Source of the DNA: Nitratifractor salsuginis DSM 16511
Lineage (GTDB): Bacteria > Campylobacterota > Campylobacteria > Campylobacterales > Sulfurovaceae
DNA length: 64,000 nt
Assembly (NCBI RefSeq): GCF_000186245.1
Contig: NC_014935.1
Location: forward strand, 372,001-436,000
Direction: 5' to 3'
The translations under genes and the position numbers were made by a program. Below, one piece after another: positions 1 through 8,406 of this stretch; within the stretch, counting starts at the first letter, position 1; the number at the start of each line of letters is the position of its first letter. The notes under the pieces were generated by a model. The model had not been told where the DNA came from, searched no databases, and saw nothing but the letters and a program-made list of their open reading frames with translations.

Positions 1-260
1 GGGGAGGGTGTATTTTATAGATCGGTTGCTTATTGCTCCTTTGAGATCCTTACTCATTTCCAGTCAATAGTCTCTCAATCCAAAATCTACGATCGTTCAT
101 CTGACAAAACCCCAATCTCAACATCATCATTATTTTTGATGATATTATCCCATTATAATCATTATTTTTTCATTTATTGTTGCAAAAGGTAACAAAAACT
201 TTATACATTAAAAAAATTACCTCTTTCATTATTAAATTAATTTATAGTGCGCTATACTTC
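1..260. other. AT-rich upstream region of the sox operon
   Basis: No gene is recognised here. The first 110 bases contain AATC-type heptad-like words (around 77-95) resembling the degenerate 7-mer repeats found elsewhere in the window. Bases 120-246 are very AT-rich, as expected of promoter DNA in Campylobacterota. A TATACT-like -10 candidate lies at 252-257, just before the inverted repeat at 261-278. No clear -35 is visible. Confidence 0.5.
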
Positions 261-278
261 ACTTGACCGAGGTCAAGT
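261..278. promoter_or_regulatory. Palindromic operator candidate upstream of soxC
   Basis: The sequence ACTTGACC-GA-GGTCAAGT is a perfect inverted repeat with 8-bp arms and a 2-bp spacer. It starts a few bases after a TATACT-like -10 and ends 31 bases before the soxC start, so a bound dimeric repressor would block transcription initiation or escape. Its regulator is not encoded in the window. Assignment as an operator is inference from symmetry and position. Confidence 0.5.
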
Positions 279-309
279 AACTATAGAATCAAAAGAAAGG
301 AGATTTTTC

Positions 310-1683
310 ATGAAGCATGAAAAGGACCGCATGGTCCACTCTCCGACAACTGCCGAGATGATCCAGGAGGTCGCGAAGCAGCTGGAGGAACTACCCAAAG
401 AGGAACGCAGAGACTTCCTGAAGCGTGGAGTCGCTTTCTCCGTGGGAGCCGCTGCGGCCATGGCCGGCGCAGGCGCCAGCCAATTGAGCGCCGAAGAGTG
501 CAAGGTCGACCCCGAGAATCTGCCGCCCCATATCCAAAAATGGGGTAAGGCTTGGGGGAGGGATGTCAATGCCTATCCCTACGGGATGCCTTCCAAATAC
601 GAATCCAACGTCGTGCGTCGGATCGTTCCCTGGCTGACGGCTGACCAGAAAGCTTCTGTCAGCTTTACCCCCTGGCAGGATCTCGAAGGGACCATCGTCC
701 CCAACGGTCTGCACTTCGTGCGCTGCCATGGTGGGGTCGTCGATATCAACCCCAAAGAGTGGCGCCTGATGATCCACGGCCTGGTGGAGCGTCCGGTCAT
801 TCTGACCCTGGAAGATCTCAAGCGCTATCCCAGCGTCACGCGGAAGCACTTTTTCTCCTGCCCCGCCAACAGCGCCATGGAGGCCCGCGGGCCCGGCCTG
901 AACTCTCTGCAGGTGACCCACGGGATGCTCTCCTCTTCCGAATACACCGGAGTCCTGATCAAGACCATCCTCGAAGATATCGGGCTCAAGCCCGAGGCGA
1001 AGTGGATGTTCTCCGAAGGTTCCGATCCCGCGAGTGTGGGACGTTCCGTGCCCATCGAGAAGGTATTGGACGACGCGATGCTGGTCTATGCCATGAACGG
1101 CGAAGCATTGCGCCCTGAGAACGGCTACCCCGTGCGCCTGCTCCTCCCCGGCTGGGAAGGGGTCATCCAGACCAAGTGGCTGCGCCGGCTCAAGTTCGAC
1201 GATAAAGCCTGGTGGGTCCGGGAAGAGACGACCAAATATACCGAGCTTCTCCCCGACGGCCATGCCAAGATGTTCAACTGGGTCTTCGAATCAGACTCGG
1301 TCATCACTTCTCCCTGCCCCGAGCGGGGTTGGGAAGGGCGTAAACCCGGCCCGACGAAGGTCGCCGGAATCGCCTGGAGCGGCAAAGGGAAGATCACAAA
1401 CGTGGATGTGACCCTCGACGGCGGCAAGACGTGGCACGAAGCCAAGATCACCAGCGAGGTTCTGCCCAAGATGATCACCCGTTTCGAATTCTATTTCGAC
1501 TGGGACGGCAAGCCGCTGATCATCGGAAGCCGCTCGACGGACGAAACCGGATACACTCAGCCCGAGCAGCAGCAGCTGATGGATGCCAGAGGTACCGAAT
1601 TCGTTTATCATAGAAACGCAATCCAATACTGGGAAGTCAAAGCAAACGGGGAGGTGAACAATGTCCAGATTCGTCGCGCGTAA
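310..1683 (+). CDS. soxC: SoxC, molybdopterin subunit of the Sox sulfane dehydrogenase
   Basis: SoxC is the molybdenum-cofactor subunit of periplasmic Sox(CD)2, which oxidises the sulfane sulfur left on SoxY during thiosulfate oxidation. The 457-residue product has a twin-arginine signal (RRDFLK at residues 33-38, then an Ala/Gly-rich hydrophobic stretch), a sulfite-oxidase-type Moco domain with a candidate ligand Cys near residue 184 (FFSCPANS), and a C-terminal Mo-co dimerisation domain. An upstream in-frame GTG at 247 is possible, but AAAGGAG before ATG 310 and the Tat layout favour 310. It is the first gene of the operon and overlaps soxD by 23 bp. The identification rests on family features and its pairing with soxD. 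Confidence 0.93.
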   Translation: MKHEKDRMVHSPTTAEMIQEVAKQLEELPKEERRDFLKRGVAFSVGAAAAMAGAGASQLSAEECKVDPENLPPHIQKWGKAWGRDVNAYPYGMPSKYESNVVRRIVPWLTADQKASVSFTPWQDLEGTIVPNGLHFVRCHGGVVDINPKEWRLMIHGLVERPVILTLEDLKRYPSVTRKHFFSCPANSAMEARGPGLNSLQVTHGMLSSSEYTGVLIKTILEDIGLKPEAKWMFSEGSDPASVGRSVPIEKVLDDAMLVYAMNGEALRPENGYPVRLLLPGWEGVIQTKWLRRLKFDDKAWWVREETTKYTELLPDGHAKMFNWVFESDSVITSPCPERGWEGRKPGPTKVAGIAWSGKGKITNVDVTLDGGKTWHEAKITSEVLPKMITRFEFYFDWDGKPLIIGSRSTDETGYTQPEQQQLMDARGTEFVYHRNAIQYWEVKANGEVNNVQIRRA

Positions 1684-2818
1684 TTTCGCTCTTATGACGG
1701 GTGCTCTGGCTTTGAGCGCCTCCATGGCCCTGGCGGGTGAAGCCGCTCCCAAGAAGCTGAGCTACACTCCCGCCGATCCCGATCACTACCCCTATCACGG
1801 TGTGGTCGAGAAGAACGGGAAGAAGATCAATATCGACGGTGCGGTCATGCAGGTCAAGGCGCCCATCAAGCTCAAAAAGGGCCAACTCAAATACGGCAAG
1901 GATGCCACGCCCAAAGAGATCGCCGGATGGAACGTCGATGTCCGGCCCGACGGCAAAGGTTTGCCGGCCGGGCAGATGACGGTCGAGCAGGGGGCCGAGG
2001 TCTTCGCCAATAACTGCGCCATGTGTCACGGTGACTTCGGCGAGGGGGTCGGGAAAAATCCCGTTCTCGTCGGCGGGCAAGGCACGTTGACGAATCAGGC
2101 GTTGACGGGTGGTGAAGACGGTCCCGAAAAGACCCTGGGCAGCTTCGCTCCCTACATCACTCCCTTCTTCTGGTACATCAAGATGGCGATGCCTCTGCCC
2201 ACGCCCAAGAAGCTGACCAACGACGAGGTCTACGGTATTATCGGTTACCTGCTTCAGCTCAACGAGATCCAAGTCGACGGCAAGGACATCGAAGATGATA
2301 CGGTGATCAACGCCGCTTTCCTCAAAAAAGTTCATATGCCCAACGAAAAGGGCTTCGAATACAACAACCTGCGCAAGCCCGACACTCACAATACCCGCTG
2401 CATGAAAGATTGCCGGGATATGAAGAAGTGGAAAGTGATGCACATCAAGATCGATGCCACCGAAAGCATCAAGCCGACGGTCGAAGTTCCCCGCTACAAC
2501 TGCGGCAAGCCCCTCTCCATCGGTGCCAACGGCTGCCCCGCGGCAGAGATGGAACTGCCCAAAAAAGCGGGCGGTGATGATGCTGCTGCCTCTGCCTACA
2601 AAGCGAGCTGTGCCGGCTGTCACGACTCGGGTGCAGCGGGTGCTCCCGTCGTCGGGAACAAAGATGACTGGGCATCCCGGATCAAAGAGGGTGAAAAGAC
2701 TCTTTATGAGCATGCGATCAAAGGATTCAACGGCATGCCTCCCAAAGGGGGCAACATGAGCCTATCCGACGATCAGGTCAAAGCGATCGTGGATTATATG
2801 GTCAAGCACAGCAAATAA
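1661..2818 (+). CDS. soxD: SoxD, diheme cytochrome c of sulfane dehydrogenase
   Basis: SoxD is the electron-accepting cytochrome c partner of SoxC in the periplasm. The 385-residue protein has an N-terminal signal peptide (about residues 1-26) and two c-type heme sites: CAMCH at 119-123 in the SoxD-type domain and CAGCH at 317-321 in a second cytochrome domain near the C-terminus. Between them is a Cys-containing segment (RCMKDC, near 247-251) that I associate with SoxD. The start ATG lies inside the end of soxC with GAGGTG just before it, so translation is probably coupled. Presence of SoxCD normally means full oxidation of thiosulfate to sulfate without stored sulfur. Confidence 0.93.
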   Translation: MSRFVARNFALMTGALALSASMALAGEAAPKKLSYTPADPDHYPYHGVVEKNGKKINIDGAVMQVKAPIKLKKGQLKYGKDATPKEIAGWNVDVRPDGKGLPAGQMTVEQGAEVFANNCAMCHGDFGEGVGKNPVLVGGQGTLTNQALTGGEDGPEKTLGSFAPYITPFFWYIKMAMPLPTPKKLTNDEVYGIIGYLLQLNEIQVDGKDIEDDTVINAAFLKKVHMPNEKGFEYNNLRKPDTHNTRCMKDCRDMKKWKVMHIKIDATESIKPTVEVPRYNCGKPLSIGANGCPAAEMELPKKAGGDDAAASAYKASCAGCHDSGAAGAPVVGNKDDWASRIKEGEKTLYEHAIKGFNGMPPKGGNMSLSDDQVKAIVDYMVKHSK

Positions 2819-2828
2819 GGAGTAGGAA

Positions 2829-3185
2829 ATGCAGGGAATGAAACGGTTGGTGGCGGCTTCGGTGCTCACCGGAATGCTGAGCGTGGGAGCGATGGCCGGC
2901 GGGAATGCCGATCTGGTCAAAGAGGGAGAGAAGATCTTCAACACAAAAAAGATCGGAAACTGCCTCGCCTGTCATGCGGCCAACGGCAAAAACATCAACA
3001 ACCCGGGGAACCTGGGGCCGAAACTGCAGGGACTCTCTGCATGGCCCGAGGAAGCGCTTTATGCCAAAGTCTACAACCCCTATACGACCAACCCGATCTC
3101 GGCAATGCCGCCGTTTGGGCTCAACGGGGTTTTGGACGATCATCAGATCAAGGCGGTTGTCGCCTATCTGAAAACCATCAAATAA
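2829..3185 (+). CDS. soxX: SoxX, monoheme cytochrome c
   Basis: SoxX is the small heme subunit of SoxAX, which couples thiosulfate to the SoxY carrier cysteine and passes on electrons. The 118-residue product has a signal peptide (cleavage after about residue 23), one CxxCH heme site (CLACH at 45-49) and a distal candidate Met ligand in the AMPPFG motif typical of SoxX. It starts 10 bp after soxD with GGAGTAGG as the ribosome-binding site. It could be labelled a generic class I cytochrome c, but length, the AMPPFG motif and position beside soxYZA support SoxX. Confidence 0.9.
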   Translation: MQGMKRLVAASVLTGMLSVGAMAGGNADLVKEGEKIFNTKKIGNCLACHAANGKNINNPGNLGPKLQGLSAWPEEALYAKVYNPYTTNPISAMPPFGLNGVLDDHQIKAVVAYLKTIK

Positions 3186-3213
3186 ACAAACTCAACACTT
3201 GAAAGGAAAGACA

Positions 3214-3696
3214 ATGGAAAGAAGAAAATTTTTGGGAATGGGTGCAGGAATGCTGGCAGTCGTCGCGGCTGCTCCTACTATGGTTATGGCAACCAACTAT
3301 CGGGAGAAACTCCCCAAGGCCTGGGAAATTCACAACAATGAAAAGTCCAAGGGTGAAGATATGAGCGGAGTGAACGCGGCGATCAAAGCTGTGTTCGGTA
3401 CCGACAAAGTCGAAGCGGGCAAAGTCAAGCTCAAAGCTCCCGATATCGCTGAGAACGGTGCCGTCGTTCCCGTCAGCATCAAGGCGCCGGGTGCCAAAAG
3501 AATCGCGCTGCTTCAGACAGCCGACCCCGAAGCCCTGGTAGCGATCTGGGATGTTCCCGAGCGCGGGATTCCCAATTACTCCATTCGGATCAAAATGCAG
3601 CAGACCGGTCACGTCGTGGTCGTCGCGGAGATCGACGGCAAGCTCTACAAAGCCGATAAAGTCGTCAAAGTCACCGTCGGCGGCTGCGGCGGCTGA
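3214..3696 (+). CDS. soxY: SoxY, sulfur-carrier subunit
   Basis: SoxY carries the sulfur intermediates covalently on a C-terminal cysteine while SoxAX, SoxB and SoxCD act on it in the periplasm. The 160-residue protein ends in the diagnostic swinging-arm motif GGCGG. The N-terminus has a Tat-like signal (ERRKFLGMGAGMLAVVAAA). I start it at ATG 3214, after GAAAGGAAAG, not at the in-frame TTG at 3199, which sits in the ribosome-binding site. It is followed by soxZ after 71 bp. Confidence 0.95.
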   Translation: MERRKFLGMGAGMLAVVAAAPTMVMATNYREKLPKAWEIHNNEKSKGEDMSGVNAAIKAVFGTDKVEAGKVKLKAPDIAENGAVVPVSIKAPGAKRIALLQTADPEALVAIWDVPERGIPNYSIRIKMQQTGHVVVVAEIDGKLYKADKVVKVTVGGCGG

Positions 3697-3767
3697 TGCC
3701 GCTTTTCCGGAGTCGGTCCCGAGTCACAAACAGTTAAACAGAATCCAAGCGAGAAAGGAAAGAAATA

Positions 3768-4061
3768 ATGAGAATCAAAGCGAAACTCAAAGGCGATAAA
3801 ACCGAAGTCAAAGTCATGATGAAACACCCCATGCTCAGCTACCGCGAAGCGAAGAAGAAAGGCAAAGAGGCCAACTTCATCGTTTACGTCACCGCCAAAA
3901 ACGAGGGGGCGGTCGTCTATGAAGTCTCTACCAGCCAATTCCTCTCCAAGAACCCCTATATGAAGTTCTACTTCAAAGGAGGCAAAAAGGGTGAAGAGGT
4001 CGAGATCACCTGGGTGGACCTCAAAGGAAAATCCAAGACAGGTAAAGCGAAGATCAAGTAA
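3768..4061 (+). CDS. soxZ: SoxZ, sulfur-carrier partner of SoxY
   Basis: SoxZ forms the SoxYZ heterodimer that presents the carrier cysteine arm to the Sox enzymes. The 97-residue product is the usual family length, has no signal peptide of its own (the family is exported with SoxY through the Tat pathway), and shows SoxZ motifs: KVMMKHPM near the N-terminus and a C-terminal Ig-like half with TWVDLKG. It has a strong ribosome-binding site (GAGAAAGGAAAG) and precedes soxA by 35 bp. Confidence 0.95.
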   Translation: MRIKAKLKGDKTEVKVMMKHPMLSYREAKKKGKEANFIVYVTAKNEGAVVYEVSTSQFLSKNPYMKFYFKGGKKGEEVEITWVDLKGKSKTGKAKIK

Positions 4062-4096
4062 CGGCCCCTTGCCGTTCGTCCTCAAAAGGAGAAGAG

Positions 4097-4993
4097 ATGA
4101 TTGCAAAGATGGCGAAAGCCTCCATAGCGGTGATGATCGGAGCGGCGGCGCTGAGTGCTGCTTCCTTCAATACCCAGGCGGAGAAGGATCGGCAGGCGCT
4201 GGTGAAGTATTTTGAAAAGAAATTCTCCGATCCGGTAAAAAACAGAGCTATGTTCCCCTATGCGACGGAAGATGAATTGAAAAACTTCATTCATCCGGTG
4301 AAATTCGAAGACTTCCGGATGGGCTCGTACGCCTACAACAAAGAGGGGCGTGATCAGTATGAAGAGATCAATGAGATGCCTCCCTATGAGGATAATGTCG
4401 ATGCGGGAGAAGAGCTCTACAACGAGACCAAGGGGATCAAACAGTGCTTTCCCGATCCCGCCATTGCCGGGGAGTACCCCAGGTTCGATACCCAAAAGGG
4501 CAAGGTGGTCACGCTGAGTGTCGCCATCAACGACTGCCTCAAAGCCCACGGCCAGAAGCCCTGGAAACTGACCAAGGGCAAGTTGGCGGACCTGGAAGCC
4601 TACTTCGCCGCCAAGAGCAAGGAAGCGGGCAAAAAGGTTCACATCACCATCCCCAGCAAAGAGGCGGCTGCCGCTTATGAGCGGGGCAAGAAGTATTATT
4701 ACTCTCAGCGGGGCTATCTCAAGCTCTCCTGCGCCACCTGCCATGTCCAGGGAGCGGGGAGCCGGGTGCGCCGTGAAGTCCTCTCCCCTCTGCTGGGCCA
4801 TACGACCCACTTTCCCGTCTATCGCCTCAAGTGGCAGGGACTGGGAACGCTGGAGCGCCGGATCAAAGGGTGTGAAAAGAATCAGGGGGAAAATCCCCAC
4901 AAGCCCGGTTCGCCCTGGATGAGCGAAATGCTCTATTTCATGGCTTATATGTCCAACGGCCTGCCTGTCGACGGGCCGGACATCAGAAAGTAA
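4097..4993 (+). CDS. soxA: SoxA, single-heme catalytic cytochrome of SoxAX
   Basis: SoxA forms the SoxAX heterodimer that attaches thiosulfate to SoxY. The 298-residue protein has a signal peptide (cleavage near residue 28), a retained heme site CATCH at 212-216 and a downstream Cys259 (IKGC) in the position of the cysteine (persulfide) axial ligand. The N-terminal domain has no CxxCH; Cys117 and Cys147 could form the disulfide that replaces the first heme in single-heme SoxA proteins. It therefore belongs to the monoheme SoxA type. AAAGGAGAAGAG precedes the ATG. Confidence 0.93.
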   Translation: MIAKMAKASIAVMIGAAALSAASFNTQAEKDRQALVKYFEKKFSDPVKNRAMFPYATEDELKNFIHPVKFEDFRMGSYAYNKEGRDQYEEINEMPPYEDNVDAGEELYNETKGIKQCFPDPAIAGEYPRFDTQKGKVVTLSVAINDCLKAHGQKPWKLTKGKLADLEAYFAAKSKEAGKKVHITIPSKEAAAAYERGKKYYYSQRGYLKLSCATCHVQGAGSRVRREVLSPLLGHTTHFPVYRLKWQGLGTLERRIKGCEKNQGENPHKPGSPWMSEMLYFMAYMSNGLPVDGPDIRK

Positions 4994-5003
4994 GGAGGGC
5001 GGA

Positions 5004-5453
5004 ATGAGAACGATGACAACACTGGCTGCGATCCTGGGGCTGGGAGCTGCTCTCACGCTCGGTGCTTCGGCGGATGAAACGGTGACACCGATGGTCGAAA
5101 AGGCTTCCAAACTGGATGTGAAGAAGGTTTGTGACGTCAAAGCCAACGGCCTGGAAAAAGTCCTTGCCGTCGCCGAAGAGTACAACCCCGAGGCGGTGAA
5201 ACTGGGTGTGGAATTCAAACGCCTGGGTATTACCAACAGCAAATACATCAAAGCCCTCAAAGAGGCGGTGAAAAACAAAGAGAAAAAAGTTACCGTGGAG
5301 TATAAATCCAAGGGTAAGATGAAAAAGAAAACTTTTGCGACCGATTATCTGGATTGGAGAGCCTGTACCTTTGCCGTACGCTCCCTTCAGCAGGTCAAAG
5401 AGGCGCAGGAGACTTATCGGAAGGCTATCCCCGGAGACGGGTACAAATTCTAA
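5004..5453 (+). CDS. Unrecognised secreted protein between soxA and soxB
   Basis: The 149-residue product starts with a signal peptide (cleavage near residues 22-24, ASADE). The mature part is about 125 residues, rich in Lys, Val and Ala and predicted mostly helical, with two cysteines (VCDV near 43 and RACT near 121) that could form a disulfide. There is no heme motif and no family I recognise. It is translated from GGAGGGCGG 10 bp after soxA and lies inside the operon, so a periplasmic role with SoxAX or SoxYZ is likely. It might be a functional counterpart of the small SoxAX-binding protein SoxK, but that is a guess from position and size. Confidence 0.75.
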   Translation: MRTMTTLAAILGLGAALTLGASADETVTPMVEKASKLDVKKVCDVKANGLEKVLAVAEEYNPEAVKLGVEFKRLGITNSKYIKALKEAVKNKEKKVTVEYKSKGKMKKKTFATDYLDWRACTFAVRSLQQVKEAQETYRKAIPGDGYKF

Positions 5454-5480
5454 GGTCGTTCTCTCTCAGGAGATCGGTCC

Positions 5481-5542
5481 CCATCCATGTAGGGTGGGCC
5501 ATGCCCACCTTTTCCCATCGGATGGAAGTTGGGTATTACCCA
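5481..5542 (+). terminator. Hairpins in the leader of soxB (attenuator or REP-like palindrome)
   Basis: The gap upstream of soxB holds a strong hairpin, GGTGGGC-CAT-GCCCACC (5493-5509), followed by TTTT (5510-5513), like a short intrinsic terminator. A second hairpin, TGGGT-ATT-ACCCA (5530-5542), follows, and CCATCC (5481-5486) can pair with GGATGG (5520-5525) around the first. Sitting inside an operon, this may reduce readthrough into soxB or protect upstream mRNA from 3' decay. The GGTGGGC/GCCCACC palindrome also resembles dispersed palindromic repeats seen in other bacteria. Confidence 0.55.
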
Positions 5543-5573
5543 CGCTATATCAAACCGTTTACAAAGGAACACA

Positions 5574-7358
5574 ATGAGTCAAATGAATCGACGTGAGTTC
5601 GTCTATACCTTAGCTATGCTCGGTGCCTCCGCCCCGCTTTTCGCCAACTCCCATATGCGGATCGCCCCCGAAGGAAAGCTGAGTGATTACTACAAGCTCA
5701 AGCCCTTCGGCAATGCGCGGATCCTGCACATGACCGACAGCCACGCGCAGCTCGTTCCCGTCTATTTCCGCGAGCCCAGCGTCAACCTGGGCATCGGAGA
5801 GAACTACGGCAAGCCGCCCCACATCGTCGGTGAGCACTTCCTGAAATATTATGGGATGGAGGGCAACAAGCGTCTGGAGTACGCGCTGACCTGTCTGCAC
5901 TTCAACGAACATGCCAAAGCGATGGGCCGCATGGGCGGATTCGCCCAGCTCAAGACCGTCGTCGATTTCCTCAGAGGAGATTTCGGCAAGGATAAAACCC
6001 TCCTGCTCGACGGCGGCGATACGTGGCAGGGAAGCTGGACCTCTCTGCAGACCCGCGGTAAAGATATGGTAGGGGCGATGAACCTTCTGGGAGTCGATGT
6101 CTGTACCGGACACTGGGAATTCACCTATACCGAGCAGGAGATTCTCGAAAACCTCAAAATGCTCAAGGCAGAATTCGTCGCCCAGAACGTCAAGGTCAAA
6201 GAAGACGCGATCATGGAGGAGAAGTTCAAGCCCTACGACGAGGATGAGGGCTGGGCCTTCAAACCCTATACGATGAAAAAACTGGGCAAGGCGCGCGTCG
6301 CCGTTATCGGCCAAGCCTTCCCCTATACCACCATCGCCAACCCCAAGCGTTTCATTCCCGACCTGACTTTCGGTATCGATACGGAAGGAATGCAGGAAGT
6401 GGTCGATATGGTTCGCAAAAAAGAGAAGCCCGATGCCGTCATCGTCATTTCCCACAACGGTTACGATGTGGATAAGAAGATGGCCCAGGTCGTCACCGGG
6501 ATCGACTTCATCATGGGCGGCCATACCCACGACGGTGTGCCCGAAGCCTATCCGGTCAAGAACGCCAAAGGGGTCACCTATGTCTGCAACGCCGGCTCCA
6601 ACGGGAAGTTCCTCAACGTCCTCGACCTGGATATCCAAAACGGCAAGATCAAAGACTTCAAATTTACCCTGTTGCCCATCTTCTCGGACCTGATCCCCGA
6701 GGATCCCAAGATGAAGCAATACATCGAAGAGGTCCGCAAGCCCTTCGCCAAAGATCTCAACCGGGTCATCGCTACCACCGAAGTGACCCTCTTCCGCCGC
6801 GGAAACTTCAATGGAAGCTGGGACCAGATTATCTGCGATGCTCTGCGCGAAGTGGGTGGCGCCGATATCTCCCTCTCTCCCGGGTTCCGTTGGGGAACCA
6901 GCGTCATCCCCGGCCAGGAGATCACCTTTGACGATCTGGCGACTCAGACGGCGATGACCTATCCCGAGACTTATGTGAAAGAGATGGATGGCAAAACGGT
7001 CAAAATGATCCTGGAAGATGTCGCCGACAACCTCTTCAATCCCGATCCCTTCTACCAGCAGGGCGGGGATATGGTCCGTACCGGCGGTATCTCCTATCGT
7101 TTCGACCCCACCGCAAAAATGGGCAACCGCCTCAGCCACATCACCCTGCTCAACGGCAAGCCCCTGGAGCCGAATAAGAAGTACAAGGTGGCCGGATGGG
7201 CGACGGTCAACTCCAAAGCCCCCGGACGCCCTATCTGGGAGATCACCGAGGAGTACCTCAAGGCCCACAAACACATCAAACAGCTCAAAGTGGACACTCC
7301 CGAGCTGGTCAATGTCAAGGGCAACCCGGGCATTACCTACAAGTGCAACTGCGTCTGA
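5574..7358 (+). CDS. soxB: SoxB, dimanganese thiosulfohydrolase
   Basis: SoxB hydrolyses the terminal sulfonate of S-thiosulfonyl-SoxY, releasing sulfate in the periplasm. The 594-residue protein belongs to the 5'-nucleotidase metallophosphoesterase family. Visible metal-site motifs are D55-S-H57, the DGGDTWQG block, GHWEF in place of GNHE, and GGHTHD; the C-terminal 5'-nucleotidase domain follows. The N-terminus is Tat-like (RREFVYTLAMLGASA). The start is ATG 5574 after AAAGGAACACA; an upstream in-frame ATG at 5529 falls inside the hairpin region and is rejected. Confidence 0.95.
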   Translation: MSQMNRREFVYTLAMLGASAPLFANSHMRIAPEGKLSDYYKLKPFGNARILHMTDSHAQLVPVYFREPSVNLGIGENYGKPPHIVGEHFLKYYGMEGNKRLEYALTCLHFNEHAKAMGRMGGFAQLKTVVDFLRGDFGKDKTLLLDGGDTWQGSWTSLQTRGKDMVGAMNLLGVDVCTGHWEFTYTEQEILENLKMLKAEFVAQNVKVKEDAIMEEKFKPYDEDEGWAFKPYTMKKLGKARVAVIGQAFPYTTIANPKRFIPDLTFGIDTEGMQEVVDMVRKKEKPDAVIVISHNGYDVDKKMAQVVTGIDFIMGGHTHDGVPEAYPVKNAKGVTYVCNAGSNGKFLNVLDLDIQNGKIKDFKFTLLPIFSDLIPEDPKMKQYIEEVRKPFAKDLNRVIATTEVTLFRRGNFNGSWDQIICDALREVGGADISLSPGFRWGTSVIPGQEITFDDLATQTAMTYPETYVKEMDGKTVKMILEDVADNLFNPDPFYQQGGDMVRTGGISYRFDPTAKMGNRLSHITLLNGKPLEPNKKYKVAGWATVNSKAPGRPIWEITEEYLKAHKHIKQLKVDTPELVNVKGNPGITYKCNCV

Positions 7359-7437: not shown

Positions 7438-8268
7438 ATGACAGCATCTTTCCTAAATTCACCTCTGCGGATTCTTTTCCTGTTTTTTCTTTTTTTCTCC
7501 ACCCTTTTTGGCAGCTATGATGAGGGAGCGAAGATCTTCTTGAACCGATGCGGTACCTGCCATACCGGCTATGTCGATCCCGAGTTGCTCAAAAAGAATT
7601 TCTTTCAGAAAAAGAACCGCCTGTTGCATCTCAAGGCCCCGACGGTCAATATGTTGGTTTACGCTATGCTCCAGGGGCCCAAAAAAGTGGGGGATATTCC
7701 GGATAGGGAGATGCGGCGTGAAGAGATTGCCGCCTACCTCGAAGAGGTGTTGCCCCGCCTCGATATGGATGAGACACTCTTCACGCGAGGGCTTTTGCAG
7801 TATTTCGGGAAAAAATGCTCCATAAAGGGGCTTGACGAAAGAGATTATCTCGATCTGTCCGATTTTTTTATGGAATATATGAAACACCGTTTTGTGGCCA
7901 AGGCTCATAGCAAGAGACATTTGGAGAATCCCGGGAAGCTTGGACTGTTACTAAGTGAAGCGAAACGCAGCGGGAAGTATCTGATCGTCGAAGCGAGTTC
8001 TCCCTATTGCCACTACTGCAAACGGATGGATCGGGAAGTGCTGAGCGATCCTGAAGTTCAAAAGCTTTTGCGAAAACATTTCATCATGGCTGAAGTGAAT
8101 GTCCAGTCGACAGCACTGCCCGAGCAATTGGTGAAGGTCTATCGCCACATCACTCCCAGTTTTTTCATTCTCGACGGCAACGGTACCCTGCTCGGCCACT
8201 ATCCCGGGAGCTGGACCCGCAAGGATTTTCTCTCGATACTGAGGGAACATCTCCCGTCGCGAAGATAG
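7438..8268 (+). CDS. Periplasmic cytochrome c-thioredoxin fusion (SoxW-like)
   Basis: The 276-residue product has a hydrophobic signal (residues 8-26), a compact cytochrome-c-like segment with one CxxCH (CGTCH at 38-42), a helical linker, and a C-terminal thioredoxin-fold domain with CxxC (CHYC, 191-194) and a cis-Pro region (ITPSFFILD). The second half resembles SoxW/DsbD-type thioredoxins that keep the SoxY cysteine or SoxAX reactive. Starting ATG 7438 follows AAGG with the signal immediately after it. It lies 79 bp after soxB and is probably the last gene of the operon. Combining a heme domain and a thioredoxin in one chain is unusual; the function of the heme is inferred as electron supply or redox sensing. 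Confidence 0.8.
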   Translation: MTASFLNSPLRILFLFFLFFSTLFGSYDEGAKIFLNRCGTCHTGYVDPELLKKNFFQKKNRLLHLKAPTVNMLVYAMLQGPKKVGDIPDREMRREEIAAYLEEVLPRLDMDETLFTRGLLQYFGKKCSIKGLDERDYLDLSDFFMEYMKHRFVAKAHSKRHLENPGKLGLLLSEAKRSGKYLIVEASSPYCHYCKRMDREVLSDPEVQKLLRKHFIMAEVNVQSTALPEQLVKVYRHITPSFFILDGNGTLLGHYPGSWTRKDFLSILREHLPSRR

Positions 8269-8406
8269 CTCTGCTTCATAAGGTAACAGGCTTTTGGCCT
8301 TTTCTTTAAAATAATCCTCCTTAATAGGCCCCTTACCGATTCTAGGTTATCCTACCCTCATAGTGAGTCTGAGCATCACTGTAATCCACATACAAAAGGG
8401 GAAGAT

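Follow-up and report, generated by a model that had tools for sequence, protein, structure and literature searches.

A conserved cytochrome c–thioredoxin fusion gene behind soxB in Nitratifractor salsuginis and its putative role in Sox thiol chemistry

SoxW and SoxS, encoded within alphaproteobacterial sox clusters, are exported proteins with a thioredoxin fold, and to our knowledge none of those described has a cytochrome domain. SoxS reduces false mixed disulfides on the carrier protein SoxYZ (PMC10451225), SoxY–SoxY disulfides have been seen in vitro (PMC5336275), and the reduction of SoxW by SoxV is stated in the title of a work cited in PMC2147049, where soxV is reported to be absent from Arcobacter butzleri RM4018. 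A sox-linked thioredoxin is thus already known, and one found in the place corresponding to that of the gene studied here was named soxW: in Sulfurovum indicum, it lies between soxH1 and dsrE, it was upregulated together with these neighbors 2.17–3.83-fold under thiosulfate, and heme is unmentioned (PMC10045233). Judged by this place, the S. indicum soxW appears to be the same gene as the one described below.

The window analyzed is a 64,000-nucleotide stretch of the genome of N. salsuginis DSM 16511, in which a sox operon of the order soxC-D-X-Y-Z-A-SAXB-soxB-fusion gene lies on the forward strand. It includes soxC (247..1683, TIGR04555), a soxD-like gene for a cytochrome c subunit with two cytochrome c domains, named from its place after soxC (1661..2818), soxX (2829..3185, TIGR04485), soxY with a GGCGG carrier arm (3199..3696, TIGR04488), soxZ (3768..4061, TIGR04490), soxA (4097..4993, TIGR04484), a gene for a protein resembling the SoxAX-binding protein, SAXB (5004..5453), and soxB (TIGR04486), whose longest frame is 5529..7358 and whose start is probably at about 5562. 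The small SAXB-like protein scored far under its family cut-off (NF052674, 17.8 bits against 95), yet its gene occupies the expected interval between soxA and soxB. It should be noted that soxCD and soxXYZAB share one operon here (247–7358), as reported for Arcobacter butzleri, unlike the two separate sox clusters of the described Sulfurovum. The last gene of the operon, the SoxW-like cytochrome c–thioredoxin fusion, starts approximately 80 bp past the stop codon of soxB on the same strand. Directly 3′ of it is a terminator-like hairpin (8288..8300, forward strand), hits of this kind being no rarer than in shuffled sequences, and beyond the hairpin an apparent ferredoxin/2-oxoacid oxidoreductase operon starts, as judged by inspection.

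The fusion gene (7438..8268, forward strand), defined by its ORF and by family comparison, extends from an ATG at 7438 to a stop codon at 8266–8268 and encodes 276 residues. Both motifs, CGTCH and CHYC, are in this single frame, which confirms the sequence-only reading of a CxxCH and a CxxC site in one exported 276-residue chain behind soxB. Export is predicted from a Sec-type signal peptide recognized by inspection (residues ~1–25, 7438..7512; Arg followed by FLFFLFFSTLFG). Next come a class I cytochrome c domain (residues ~26–150, 7513..7887), delimited by profile matches and the predicted model, with the CGTCH heme-attachment motif at residues 38–42 (7549..7563), and a thioredoxin domain of the DsbD-gamma/Thioredoxin_7/Thioredoxin_2 type (residues 158–276, 7909..8265), recognized by domain, fold and profile matches. 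The latter contains the redox-active CHYC motif (residues 191–194, 8008..8019) and a Thr-Pro pair at the expected cis-Pro loop (residues 239–240, 8152..8157). The domain search revealed no DsbD_TM match in the fusion protein, and no long hydrophobic stretch was seen besides the signal peptide.

Among 175 genomes of the family to which the window belongs, 92 had matches to this protein, as did several further families of the order; some of these matches were thioredoxin-only. The 106 aligned sequences comprised, besides the query, 84 full-length, 12 thioredoxin-only and 9 heme-only relatives. CxxCH was kept in 84/84 of the full-length relatives and CxxC in 84/84 of the full-length and 12/12 of the thioredoxin-only ones; thus, the motif whose loss in orthologues would have spoken against the initial reading is conserved, and the survey of the domain combination which that reading proposed revealed a conserved fusion widespread in related sulfur bacteria. 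In an alignment of 64 rows, the invariant residues were G30, C38, C41, H42, N54, N60, L65 and P68 in the heme half and C191, C194, P228, T239, P240, G257 and L268 in the thioredoxin half. A chance CxxCH was rejected, since the motif is invariant across the 84 other full-length relatives at ~27–54% identity to the query, and a frameshift, two genes read as one or an assembly chimera was rejected since the same fusion is present in dozens of genomes. Single-domain relatives of ~140 residues are widespread. A search of phages for relatives of the fusion gave none, and a search of plasmids gave one, in Sulfurovum mangrovi. Adjacent pairs of the heme–thioredoxin gene were observed in genomes G065, G074, G080, G091 and G108, and at locus L038 (G063:C1:1760000-1779000) a block of ~3.88 kb apparently occurs three times, with two tandem heme–thioredoxin genes per copy. 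A third subfamily of fusions (L052, L053, L086 and similar loci) is not sox-linked; its neighbors, named by eye, are S1/CvfB-like and endonuclease/exonuclease-like genes.

In all of the 81 soxB/gene pairs, the fusion-family gene had the orientation of soxB and lay downstream of it, and two types of cluster were distinguished. Type 1, to which the window belongs, has the order soxCDXYZA-SAXB-soxB-fusion, with a gap between soxB and the fusion gene usually shorter than 120 bp, and the type-1 soxB sequences of relatives within the genus were 81–87% identical. Type 2 consists of soxXYZAB, with no soxCD over the stretches read and a soxB of ~40% identity; at the loci inspected, its fusion gene follows a porin gene and/or a gene for a SoxH-like metallo-hydrolase and often precedes a gene for a periplasmic DsrE. 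The S. mangrovi plasmid has the same gene order, the product being annotated there as DUF255 plus a hypothetical protein. The sequence-only reading had linked the protein to the thiol chemistry of SoxY or SoxA, and such a link is supported by the 81/81 position downstream of soxB together with the DsbD-gamma-like fold.

The Thioredoxin_7 match in the query had an E-value of 2.4e-13, and AlphaFold2 models were obtained with pLDDT = 92.8 and pTM = 0.71 for the query and 94.8 and 0.83, respectively, for a relative with the axial Met, the pTM of 0.71 meaning that the mutual placing of the two domains in the query is not firm. The thioredoxin half was superposed on DsbD-gamma 2fwe (Z = 16.3, rmsd = 1.9, 115 residues), and that of the Met-type relative was superposed on 3f9u, 2lst and DsbH; the Foldseek and VIA-align match lists were filled by this half. 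Its profile matched the 2lst, DsbD and DsbH structures. SoxS was not among the PDB matches of the profile at E = 0.001, with which kinship is still compatible. The features of the SoxW type, namely, location in the sox cluster and a thioredoxin fold with CxxC and cis-Pro, were found, and the likeness to SoxW is one of place and fold.

The cytochrome half of the query alone matched Cytochrome_CBB3 with a sub-threshold score (16 bits, cut-off 27 bits), and among members of the family this domain was matched by 50/51 and Cytochrom_C by 42/51. The profile of Met-type N-terminal domains matched solved cytochromes c6 at both ends (3dmi, E = 3.5e-7), and that of the Lys-type domains matched c6 more weakly (E ~3e-4); the hhalign comparison of the heme domain with SoxX gave a probability of 76%, and the axial Met was assigned from the c6 matches in place of the SoxX alignment. 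In the predicted model, helices extend over residues 27–38 and 134–154, and CxxCH follows the first of them. The maturation machinery attaches heme to the CxxCH of exported proteins, and heme binding by the fusion protein is strongly implied.

The axial Met of c6 ("aMPafggrlsdeei") aligned with a Met of most relatives ("tMPsmkgkiseeei"), which is invariant in type-2 and heme-only members and present in most of the non-sox members. The query has in this column Lys126 (7813..7815), placed there both by profile–profile alignment of the two clades and by the c6 alignment. Lys was found in 27/30 of the type-1 rows; the three exceptions, all close relatives, have Thr, Thr and Pro, each with His as the next residue. 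The row L111, labelled type 2, also has Lys but carries a type-1 soxB, its contig ending before soxCD would appear; its inclusion gives a count of 28/31. Met was found in 36/36 of the other type-2 rows and 9/9 heme-only rows, and the 17 non-sox rows had 16 Met and one His. The type-1 rows formed one side of a supported branch (starred in the tree, SH-aLRT 96), so the Met-to-Lys change was probably a single event. The protein is thus a variant, as distinct from a standard His/Met cytochrome, and the alignments predict Lys as the distal heme ligand in the query's clade. Residue 126 is eight residues ahead of the C-terminal helix of the model, and Met80 of mitochondrial cytochrome c has a similar spacing before its C-terminal helix. 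Two other residues common in the Lys clade were judged less likely than Lys126 as replacement ligands: M92, which is not invariant, and M72, for which the proximal side is expected by analogy with cytochrome c. Adjoining Lys126 is Cys127 (7816..7818), present only in the query among the Lys-clade rows aligned, and possibly an alternative ligand or a stray or reactive thiol. In TsdA, the His/Met-ligated state of the hemes has potentials of +172 and +266 mV and the His/Lys state −129 mV (PMC6879331). By analogy, the Met-to-Lys change would lower the heme potential from ~+200 mV towards ~−130 mV, which established chemistry would place near the range of CxxC dithiol/disulfide couples.

The reading that we favor, with a probability of roughly 45%, is that the protein joins a periplasmic SoxW/SoxS-like thiol–disulfide reductase to a c-type cytochrome whose heme is coupled to the CxxC or gates it. 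DsbD would keep the thioredoxin domain reduced, and this domain would clear false mixed disulfides or SoxY–SoxY disulfides from the carrier cysteine of SoxYZ, with the SoxA cysteine perhaps as a second target; the thiols of SoxYZ thus cleared would keep the Sox cycle running. The covalently attached heme would trade electrons with the CxxC or gate it, and in the query's clade the change of the distal Met to Lys would bring its potential close to those of dithiol/disulfide couples. We infer SoxYZ as the substrate, the heme–thiol coupling and the electron direction; for the thioredoxin half, a SoxYZ thiol role is suggested by its being sox-encoded and DsbD-gamma-like, a SoxS-type job being the simplest reading. 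The redox states of heme and thiol may be coupled, and the heme domain is absent from 12 orthologues. The earlier proposal that electrons are drawn directly, without DsbD, was not supported, as the genome also encodes a full DsbD (663-aa frame, C1:883064) and a CcdA-like protein; a heme with His/Met ligation, as expected in most of the family, would have a potential far too high to reduce a CxxC disulfide, and only in the Lys clade, which includes the query, would the potentials come close. A bolder form of the favored reading is that, in the SoxCD-type Sox systems of Campylobacterota, a Lys-ligated low-potential heme in direct electron exchange with the CxxC would make respiratory or SoxCD-derived electrons, and not DsbD alone, set the thiol state of SoxYZ, the protein being a heme-driven thiol reductase or a redox sensor; this we regard as rather improbable.

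The opposite direction of electron flow, in which the CxxC dithiol or a SoxY persulfide would be oxidized and the heme would pass electrons to respiratory cytochromes, making the protein an oxidase or persulfide shuttle, is unlikely, although several observations are in its favor. Most members have the axial Met and thus probably a high-potential His/Met heme able only to accept electrons from thiols, a His sits between the cysteines of CHYC, and the periplasmic DsrE and SoxH-like neighbors in type-2 clusters point to a sulfur relay. However, DsbD-gamma and related reductases are the nearest matches of the thioredoxin half, and Lys in place of Met in the query would lower the potential, opposite to what an electron acceptor calls for.

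A CcsX/ResA-like helper of cytochrome maturation, reducing the apocytochrome CxxCH disulfides of SoxX, SoxA and SoxD with the cytochrome domain as a docking module or internal client, would suit an operon that encodes several c-type cytochromes in a phylum that uses system II with a reducing thioredoxin protein (PMC4460558), and 3f9u, titled cytochrome c biogenesis-related, was among the top structural matches. The fusion gene, however, is present in only a subset of genomes, where it is tied to soxB, and the precedent in sox operons is that of SoxYZ-directed thioredoxins (PMC10451225), which makes such a helper improbable.

The halves might also have independent functions, a small electron carrier and a SoxW thioredoxin being fused solely for co-expression and co-localization with no heme–thiol electron traffic. 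The thioredoxin-only orthologues, which occupy the same place as the fusion, and the heme-only paralogues, which belong to another family (f8) and another locus, indicate that the halves are separable modules, and the fusion state needs 8 changes on the tree of the thioredoxin domain. In one member of the window's genus (L057:7012-7485, forward strand), the heme domain was apparently lost in frame, with the signal peptide and the thioredoxin domain kept; the loss was judged from the protein alignment, as MAFFT misaligned the 5′ part, and it is provisional because the assembly is fragmented. The soxCD-type clusters of eight genomes of genus g4 and of G140 had no fusion gene in the stretches read. 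In genus g4 (L149–L156), these clusters end, in place of the fusion, with genes for MOSC-like and periplasmic DsrE-like proteins. It was concluded from the thioredoxin-only orthologues, the L057 loss and the gene absence in g4 and G140 that the heme domain is strongly kept but not obligatory. On the other hand, 84/96 of the relatives having the thioredoxin half kept the fusion, and these span several family groups and both sox types; moreover, the change at the ligand column is limited to a single clade, where Lys was then mostly retained, so that functional independence of the halves seems slightly less probable still. That the Lys-clade domain no longer binds heme, its CxxCH being a relic or binding something else, is very improbable: the axial Met is gone and the cytochrome match is weaker than in the Met clade, but C, C and H are invariant throughout the Lys clade despite divergence to ~33–49% identity to the query, and the CxxCH of exported proteins is where the maturation machinery attaches heme.

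The fusion gene has the place that a sox thioredoxin would be expected to have and bears on the upkeep of the SoxYZ carrier thiol in Campylobacterota. If heme and CxxC do exchange electrons, one-electron respiratory chemistry and two-electron thiol chemistry would be joined on one small soluble protein, and the natural series of Met-heme fusion, Lys-heme fusion, thioredoxin-only protein and no gene makes such a link directly testable. No description of the heme fusion, of its conservation or of the Met/Lys split between the sox types was found in the open-access papers searched.

Comparison with known systems reveals that the fusion is, like SoxW and SoxS, sox-encoded and, by prediction, exported. 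With DsbD-gamma, DsbH and the Thioredoxin_7 proteins, its thioredoxin half shares the fold and the active-site arrangement; unlike them, it is soluble, fused to cytochrome c and without a transmembrane part, and the transmembrane beta and periplasmic alpha and gamma domains that define DsbD are not combined in it. The heme domain has in common with cytochrome c6 and cbb3 subunit III the CxxCH, the N- and C-terminal helices and, in most of the family, the position of the axial Met, whereas its ~125 residues include an extended middle part with conserved LKAPT and GDP motifs. The protein of PDB 2l4d, a SCO1/SenC family protein/cytochrome c, is by its molecule name also a thioredoxin fold joined to a cytochrome c; we take it from this name to belong to a copper-chaperone family and presume that it is not sox-linked. 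The closest parallel to the ligand change is heme 2 of the sulfur enzyme TsdA, His/Lys in A. vinosum and His/Met in C. jejuni, where Lys208 adjoins Met209 (PMC6879331), and a Lys-Met pair recalling it is present in some members of the fusion family (L061, L110); TsdA, however, is a diheme protein without a thioredoxin domain, and the ligation of the fusion is predicted by alignment.
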